This document shows positions 3,309-4,902 of a stretch of DNA of 18,714 bases, piece after piece. Location of the stretch: positions 1 to 18,714 of the forward strand of contig URIN01000001.1 in NCBI GenBank assembly GCA_900547915.1, in the 5' to 3' direction. Position 1 is the first letter of the stretch. Every line of letters begins with the position of its first letter. The notes beneath the pieces were generated by a model, which worked only from the letters and a program-made list of their open reading frames with translations, ran no database searches and was not told the origin of the DNA. This DNA is from an uncultured Clostridium sp. Its GTDB lineage: Bacteria; Bacillota; Clostridia; Oscillospirales; Acutalibacteraceae. Made by a program: the position numbers and the translations under genes.

Positions 3309-3347
3309 AAAAACCTCCCTGAGCAACAAATTATTTTTAGGAATATT

Positions 3348-3376
3348 ATTATATACAATTTATGCGGTTATTTCAA
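3348..3376 (-). promoter_or_regulatory. sigma-A promoter of guaA
   Basis: On the minus strand the -35 TTGAAA (3371-3376), a 17-bp spacer and a perfect -10 TATAAT (3348-3353) are seen. Transcription should start near 3341, giving a leader of only about 30 nt before the guaA start codon. It is divergent from the plus-strand promoter at 3441-3469. Confidence 0.85.
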
Positions 3377-3440
3377 GACAGTAACCGAGTTAAAACAAAA
3401 ATGCAAATAGATTTTGGCGTACTTAATGACTCTTTCAATG

Positions 3441-3469
3441 TTGACAGAGCAAAAAGCAGATGATATACT
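3441..3469 (+). promoter_or_regulatory. strong sigma-A promoter for the structured RNA / plus-strand operon
   Basis: A perfect -35 TTGACA (3441-3446), a 17-bp spacer and an extended -10 TGATATACT (TATACT at 3464-3469) make this one of the best promoters in the window. The expected start, about seven bases past the -10, is 3475-3477, which coincides with the first bases of the long inverted repeat at 3474-3588. Confidence 0.8.
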
Positions 3470-3473
3470 GAAA

Positions 3474-3588
3474 CTGCGACACAAAAAGTTAACAGGCATA
3501 TAGTTGAGGTATGTTTTTTTTATTTCGGTAAAAACGCATGCCGTTTTAGCATACTTGATTATATGCTTTTGGATTTTTTGTGTCGCAG
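3474..3588 (+). ncRNA. candidate structured RNA: 115-nt imperfect hairpin
   Basis: The ends are a perfect 14-bp inverted repeat, CTGCGACACAAAAA (3474-3487) and TTTTTGTGTCGCAG (3575-3588). Inside, in the same register, GCATATA (3496-3502) pairs with TATATGC (3560-3566). GTATG (3509-3513) pairs with CATAC (3550-3554), and AAAACG (3531-3536) pairs with CGTTTT (3542-3547) around a 5-nt loop. The segments between the stems are of equal or nearly equal length, so the whole stretch folds as one long stem. A near-consensus promoter fires at its first base and an intrinsic terminator follows 25 nt after its last. It may be a small RNA of about 160 nt, a 5' leader/attenuator for the genes at 3563-4770, or a MITE-like palindromic insertion that happens to be transcribed. 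I recognise no known RNA family. Confidence 0.55.
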
Positions 3589-3976
3589 CAAAGTGGGGCA
3601 ATGCGTTTTTCGTGCGCAGCTCCGGCTGCGCATTTTTTATTGCCTAATTTTAGGGGGTAGCAACAAAACGGAACTTAATGAAATTGAACTTTATGACTAT
3701 GAGCTTGAAAGGAAATTACCAATAAAAGAGTTTTTGGCAGATGAAACTGATGAAGAAATCGAATATTATATTGATTTAAAGGCTCATCAAATAATTGAGG
3801 AACTCCGCTCAAACTCTCCTTATCAAACTGTAAAAGACACAATTTTAGACAGCAAATTATTTATATCAGAAGATTTTTACAATCAATTACTCTTCCACAA
3901 AATGGAGAAGTCAGAATATCTAAAAGAAATGATTTTTAAAAGGGAAGAGACTAAACTAAACGAAAAGAGGCTTTAA
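3563..3976 (+). CDS. hypothetical acidic protein; start codon unresolved
   Basis: I do not recognise this family. The credible coding part begins near 3659 (frame reading SNKTELNEIELYDYELERK) and runs to TAA at 3974-3976. It encodes a roughly 106-aa, Glu/Lys-rich, helical-looking cytoplasmic protein with no signal peptide or Cys motif. The coordinates given start at the only in-frame ATG, which lies inside the long hairpin, has no ribosome site and precedes the terminator at 3613-3638, so it is unlikely to be the real start. A good AGGGGG site lies at 3652-3657, but no ATG, GTG or TTG follows in frame until a TTG at 3734. The ATG at 3678 is out of frame and stops after 15 codons. The gene is therefore either 5'-damaged or uses a non-standard start. 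It ends two bases before the next gene, so the two are co-transcribed and probably coupled. Confidence 0.5.
   Translation: MLLDFLCRSKVGQCVFRAQLRLRIFYCLILGGSNKTELNEIELYDYELERKLPIKEFLADETDEEIEYYIDLKAHQIIEELRSNSPYQTVKDTILDSKLFISEDFYNQLLFHKMEKSEYLKEMIFKREETKLNEKRL
3613..3638 (+). terminator. intrinsic terminator between structured RNA and downstream genes
   Basis: TGCGCAGC (3613-3620), loop TCCG and GCTGCGCA (3625-3632) form a perfect 8-bp GC-rich stem followed by TTTTTT (3633-3638). It lies after the long hairpin and before the AGGGGG site of the downstream gene. It could be the end of a small RNA or an attenuator. Its 3' arm GCTGCG is also complementary to CGCAGC (3584-3589) in the right arm of the long hairpin. 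Confidence 0.8.
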
Positions 3977-3978
3977 TT

Positions 3979-4770
3979 ATGAAGAAAAAAGTTATAATTA
4001 TTTCTGTTGTGGCAATAGTTGTTATAATAGCAGCAATTTGCGTTGGCGTTGCAACTACTTCAAAAAAAGACAACAAAGAGACAACAACAGAAAACAGCAC
4101 TGTTTTTGAAACGGTAACAGACGAAAATGGGGAGGCTGTCACCAATGAAAGCGGTGAAGCTGTAACTGAAGTATACGAGAAAGTTCCTGTTGTTGATGAA
4201 AACGGTAATGTGGTAAAAGATGAGAACGGTCAAACTGTTACAAAGAAAGTATCGGCGGCAAGTAGTTCTTTAGGCAACAACTCAAACGGAACTGCAAAAA
4301 GCCCAAATTCAAACAGTGGCAGTTCAAGCAGTAACACAACAAAGCCAAGTTCCGGTAATTCTTCAACATCCTCAAAACCGGCAACAACTGCAAAGCCTGA
4401 GACCACGACCTCTAAGCCAACAACAAAACCCGAAACAACAACCTCAAAACCGACGACAACAAAACCGGCAGTATCTTATGATATAGATTATTTCGTAAAT
4501 TATGCAATTAGCTATGGCAAATCAATCGGTCTGAAATATGATAGCAGTATAACTCCCGAAACTGGAAGCTGGGATATGCCGATGTCTGGAAACTTTCCAC
4601 AAATTACAGAAAAAGACAGAGAATACTATGAAAGCGGCATTCAAACCAGATGTAATAGAATTAAAAGAGAAATAGGAGACGGCGCGATTTTTTGGGTATA
4701 TGCAAGTAATCTCGATTTTGACGGCAATCCAATGGCAAAAGGAAGATATTATTTATACATTGGATACTAA
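3979..4770 (+). CDS. membrane-anchored extracellular protein with Thr/Ser/Pro-rich stalk
   Basis: The function is unknown. The 263-aa protein starts with MKKK and an uncleaved-looking hydrophobic anchor (residues 4-24). Low-complexity DENG repeats follow at about 48-85 (DENGEAVT, DENGNVVK, DENGQTVT). A long Ser/Asn then Thr/Lys/Pro linker covers about 93-165 and contains the tandem repeat ETTTSKPTT (141 and 152). A compact C-terminal domain (166-263) is rich in Tyr/Trp/Gly and ends in GRYYLYIGY. This layout is typical of Gram-positive surface proteins that hold a small domain outside the membrane. A similar C-terminal domain recurs, as I recall, in Clostridia secreted proteins of unknown role. 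A lipobox is possible at Cys21 but poor. The start is the ATG two bases after the upstream stop, with AAGAGG as ribosome site. It is the last gene of the plus-strand unit, ending in the terminator at 4870-4891. Confidence 0.8.
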   Translation: MKKKVIIISVVAIVVIIAAICVGVATTSKKDNKETTTENSTVFETVTDENGEAVTNESGEAVTEVYEKVPVVDENGNVVKDENGQTVTKKVSAASSSLGNNSNGTAKSPNSNSGSSSSNTTKPSSGNSSTSSKPATTAKPETTTSKPTTKPETTTSKPTTTKPAVSYDIDYFVNYAISYGKSIGLKYDSSITPETGSWDMPMSGNFPQITEKDREYYESGIQTRCNRIKREIGDGAIFWVYASNLDFDGNPMAKGRYYLYIGY

Positions 4771-4869
4771 AAATCACATTGAAGAAGAGCTCAGGCTGAG
4801 TTATACGGACATATAAATGACAATAAAACAAAAAAACATACAACTGCAATACTTTTCAAAGCACAAAAA

Positions 4870-4891
4870 CCTCCGCTGAAAACAGCGGAGG
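4870..4891. terminator. bidirectional terminator between convergent genes
   Basis: CCTCCGCTG, loop AAAA and CAGCGGAGG form a perfect 9-bp stem. The plus strand continues CTTTTAT and the minus strand TTTTTGTG, so the element can end both the plus-strand 3979-4770 gene and minus-strand purA, whose stop codon is 11 bases away. Confidence 0.93.
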
Positions 4892-4902
4892 CTTTTATAT
4901 TA

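Follow-up and report, generated by a model that had tools for sequence, protein, structure and literature searches.

What kind of RNA would be made from the gap between purA and guaA in the 18,714-nucleotide stretch of DNA analysed here (the window), and would it act as a free transcript or on the gene that follows it? On the forward strand of this gap lies a consensus promoter (3441-3469), with a TTGACA -35 box at 3441-3446, a 17-nt spacer and an extended -10 TATACT at 3464-3469, the TG of which occupies 3461-3462; it would place the transcription start at 3475-3477. A 14-bp perfect repeat (3474-3487 with 3575-3588) forms the base of a long hairpin, and a putative intrinsic terminator (3612-3638) follows. 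Folding of 3465-3645 yields -77.8 kcal/mol against -44.1 ± 3.9 kcal/mol in 200 dinucleotide shuffles, none of which reaches the native value (z = -8.7). In the minimum free energy structure, 3474-3490 pairs with 3572-3588, forming the 5' and 3' arms of the outer stem P1, while 3494-3505 and 3507-3515 pair with 3548-3568. A preliminary description of this DNA had placed the promoter, the repeat and the terminator (3613-3632, then six T at 3633-3638) at these same positions, and its proposal of a structured RNA served by a promoter and a terminator of its own is borne out by sequence and folding. So is its view that the RNA belongs to no known family, in that the window gave no match at gathering score to any of the 4227 families of Rfam 15, the best weak local match being mir-559 at 23.6 bits against a gathering score of 95.

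The gap itself (3309-4902) spans 1594 bp, occupied by the leader and by two genes in opposite orientation. Among the 16 guaA relatives whose flank includes purA, 10 have purA and guaA 17-172 bp apart; in the other six the distance is 658-3408 bp, three of these being measured to a purA-like match of just 41-50% identity. No element was found beside guaA in the loci of 80 guaA relatives, within reach of their flanks, nor did either window gene have a match in any of these loci. In two of them (L001 and L005) a different sequence, judged by eye, occupies the purA-guaA gap, which seems to accommodate accessory genes. The first gene under the leader (3668-3976, forward strand), a frame that the preliminary description had missed, had its start assigned by eye against homologues; it has a Shine-Dalgarno-like AGGGGG at 3652-3657 and an expected start codon of ACG instead of ATG. 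Six homologues (P0002-P0004 and P0006-P0008) have methionine at the position matching 3668, and threonine is also found at the site of 3668-3670 in a relative of 97% identity (P0001), whose predicted frame extends back into the leader. The start may be non-canonical, or the gene may be weakened. The second gene (3979-4770, forward strand), which had no Pfam match, appears by eye to encode a membrane anchor or signal and, after it, a stretch rich in Thr and Ser.

Relatives of the element were found elsewhere. A distant BLAST search recovered two, on contigs from human faeces that were deposited as 'Bacteriophage sp.'; in a record so deposited (MT835845.1) ordinary chromosomal genes, judged by eye, seem to surround the element. 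A whole-genome search found matches at the DNA level in 22 of 40 guaA-relative genomes, although in two of these the matches are short and do not represent the element. A covariance model of 169 positions, built from 29 aligned copies, matched at least 89 of the 250 genomes in the family of genome G003, 28 of 50 guaA-relative genomes, at least 103 of 295 genomes of the order (about a third) and, among 398 genomes of the phylum set, G003 only, these genome sets overlapping one another. Because only the best 11 (family), 9 (order) or 7 (phylum) candidates were scored per genome, under strict filters, the genome and copy counts are lower bounds. Two genomes carry at least 11 copies each, with 11 scored per genome. 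The one cultured strain with a match is Eubacterium coprostanoligenes ATCC 51222, in the guaA-relative set, where none of five Ruminococcus flavefaciens genomes matched the model. Copies also occur in tandem: one contig (G013:C60) has an array of four units at a spacing of about 266 bp, and at L267:501-1474 four full promoter-leader-terminator units precede a single PIN-domain gene.

The anatomy of the family was analysed in 124 distinct copies, mostly best-scoring matches. The best -10 box ends 4-5 nt 5' of the stem in 101 of the 124, and the promoter scores at least 10 of 12 in 60 copies, compared with 3 of 124 base-shuffled upstream sequences. The arms of the stem vary widely in sequence while retaining their pairing: P1 shows strong cis-specific pairing (z = -25.9), and the compensatory changes that the preliminary description had suggested looking for were present in 11 of 15 outer-stem pairs in the 29 aligned copies. 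The parts conserved in sequence are the stem foot (UGC.A), an AAUA in the 5' arm, the apical UUUUUA and UAAAAA..C, a GC..CA linker, a U-tract after segment M (below) and the terminator. The AAUA site (A 86%, A 99%, U 97%, A 93%), which is often a bulge and for which the predicted structural context differs between copies, reads AACA in the window copy (3491-3494).

Pairing statistics point to further partners within and beyond the hairpin, all missed by the preliminary description. In the window, segment L (AAAAACGCAUGCC, 3530-3542) lies inside the hairpin and is complementary, with one bulge, to segment M (GGGGCAAUGCGUUUUU, 3595-3610) in the interval between hairpin and terminator; the duplex has a predicted energy of -16.8 kcal/mol and would be a potential pseudoknot. 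Across the family, L:M pairing has a z of -14.1 over its full length and of -10.5 in its core, with double changes in 5 of 14 pairs. L can alternatively pair with segment Z, for which segment Z' (3549-3557) is a predicted rival. Segment M in turn has a second possible partner in T1 (3612-3623), the 5' part of the terminator, which also pairs with T2 (3624-3632; z = -16.6) ahead of the U-tract (3633-3638). Both M:T1 and T1:T2 are cis-specific and share T1, so that a candidate antiterminator and a terminator would be mutually exclusive. By other measures M:T1 is weaker, and it is the weakest link of the switch model: double changes occur in just 3 of 10 pairs, a number equalled by 157 of 500 shuffles; its number of pair types is equalled by 377 of 500; a pointed test of one pair gave p = 0.06, rising to 0.12 when distinct sequences were used (88 of the 124 copies parsed); and in the window copy the pairing has two mismatches.

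These data are best accommodated, with a probability that we would put at roughly three in four, by a model in which the hairpin is one copy of a family of RNA switches, each placed between a promoter and a gene, which would decide whether transcription stops by exchanging pairings; the family is repeated around some genomes of gut-type Clostridia. In this model Z' would compete with L for Z, and L would pair either with Z or, as a pseudoknot, with M. When freed from L, M would pair with T1 to form the antiterminator; otherwise T1 would pair with T2 to form the terminator. Through such a chain, transcription would either end before the gene or continue into it. Energy-model predictions of folding order and balance, with the pseudoknot left out, suggest that L has on average only about an even chance (0.49) of being unpaired at the end of the stem, the L-free state being the lower one in 87 of the 124 copies.

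The arrangement of the copies is that of an attenuator, with a promoter, a structured leader, an intrinsic terminator and then a gene on the same strand. Of the 111 copies whose flank is long enough, 79 are followed by a same-strand gene that has a ribosome site and starts no more than 80 nt past the terminator. The promoter side, examined as a divergent control, gave 17 of 111, and this difference makes a cis-acting leader more likely than a free transcript. The median distance from element to gene is 15 nt in these 79 copies (10th-90th percentile, 12-30 nt) and 17 nt in a count of 110; because the gene is so near, there is usually too little room for a separate promoter, unless one lies inside the leader. 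Hence, of the single transcript of about 160 nt that the preliminary description had proposed, the promoter, fold and terminator stand, but its existence as a free RNA is disfavoured by the family. A family of stand-alone small RNAs, in which the terminator is unconditional, L or M could have other RNAs as partners in trans and gene adjacency is incidental, would suit the well-kept promoter and terminator and the tandem arrays, which resemble multi-copy small RNA genes in placing as many as four complete units ahead of a single gene. It would also suit the 32 of 111 copies for which no gene start was scored in the next 80 nt, some of which are upstream members of such arrays. We consider it improbable, however, given the short same-strand distances and the covariation of the alternative M:T1 pairing, for which an unconditional terminator has no need.

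Other nascent RNAs influence termination through their structure, among them EAR, LoaP-dependent hairpins and the promoter-proximal put RNA of phage HK022. The last of these acts on polymerase as nascent RNA, according to the consulted portion of PMC9378689, and the hairpin described here might similarly offer a binding surface through which polymerase is made to ignore terminators. That it begins at the predicted transcription start and conserves the sequence of its stem foot and AAUA segment would fit such a role, yet the sole terminator seen is inside the element, is predicted to be conditional and appears to exchange partners with it, and none of 19 element-bearing genomes has a LoaP above NCBI's curated cut-off; we therefore think this quite unlikely. 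Weaker matches to the LoaP model, at 52-96 bits against a cut-off of 125, occur in 18 of the 19 genomes, and 11 of 14 control genomes likewise have matches below the cut-off; these are probably NusG, though a distant LoaP paralogue may be present in element-bearing genomes.

A mobile hairpin repeat of the MITE, REP or integron attC kind, with arms that serve as DNA recombination signals, would explain the many copies per genome, the long inverted repeat, the adjoining accessory genes and the filling, by the window copy and its two genes, of what in 10 of 16 relatives is a short gap, but is very improbable, since the arms differ between copies with pairing kept, most copies, each bringing its own promoter, are found 5' of genes in one orientation, and DNA recombination leaves the covariation of L, M and T1 unexplained. 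MITE and REP copies are expected to be similar and blind to orientation, whereas thinning to under 70% alignment identity leaves 78 of the 124 copies here, with the orientation bias given above (79 versus 17 of 111); attC, a recombination site that goes with an integron integrase, sits at the 3' end of its cassette. The preliminary description had named a scattered repeat family as an outcome that would count against a conserved RNA, and many copies per genome are literally what was found, but not in the sense intended, because the arms differ, pairing and promoter are kept, and the place before genes is consistent.

As a proposed attenuator, the switch would be of a known kind. Riboswitches and T-box leaders act by transcription attenuation, and the element resembles them as a 5' leader in which exclusive pairings set an antiterminator against an intrinsic terminator, with several copies per genome. 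It differs in that the window copy has no Rfam match, no compact conserved core was seen (the conserved patches amount to a candidate aptamer only), the downstream genes share no common metabolite and the promoter is inside the conserved unit. In preQ1-type riboswitches the expression platform is gated by a pseudoknot in which a hairpin pairs with sequence downstream of it, and the predicted L:M pseudoknot would likewise join the hairpin to downstream sequence. The SLH motif, in the consulted portion of Stav et al. 2019 (PMC6429828), has 80 examples, about 60% of them before S-layer-homology genes; it too is an orphan cis element found ahead of genes for surface proteins in some Clostridia, and is set apart here by its description rather than by a comparison of structures. 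A survey of structured RNAs in the human microbiome lists 3161 automatic candidates, 508 of them directly upstream of genes, in the portion consulted (Fremin and Bhatt 2021, PMC8040213), and these could include a fragment of the family. The element is not described in the consulted portions of PMC11109978, PMC6429828, PMC9378689 and PMC8040213, and a word search of PMC8632094 gave no match. The family is apparently undescribed and without a name, although it could be hidden among unlabelled candidate lists.

Such an apparently unnamed regulatory RNA, present in at least 103 of 295 sampled genomes of one order and in at least 11 copies in some, would mark out a regulon of surface and accessory genes in bacteria in which gene regulation has hardly been studied. 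It would also offer an orphan signal, and a natural multi-step strand-displacement switch with its steps recorded in covariation. Among 91 downstream proteins, Pfam matches (tallied for 25 of 55 families) include BspA-type LRR_5 (15), EcoRI-type methylase (4), Listeria-Bacteroides repeats (4), CHAP, dockerin, HTH_3 and MazE/AbrB-like domains (3 each), and AMP-binding and YspA SLOG (2 each). Among the downstream genes PADLOC reported four type II methyltransferases; most of its other names are of regulator type, with one viperin-type hit and one to PDC-S61. No pathway is common to the downstream genes. It is conceivable, and offered tentatively, that promoter and switch move together with accessory genes which are silent by default and released together by one common signal. 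On this reading the switch would be a general gatekeeper of newly acquired genes, for surface proteins, orphan methylases, small regulators and defence-type functions, in one order of gut Clostridia. Orphan EcoRI-type adenine methylase genes follow the copies at four loci, one shown singly (L260) and three assigned by eye (L276, L280 and L298). In E. coprostanoligenes, the sole copy found (L339:881-1062, minus strand) precedes, within L339:380-1062, a YspA SLOG-family gene, next to which lies a large frame that we take to resemble a type I restriction subunit.
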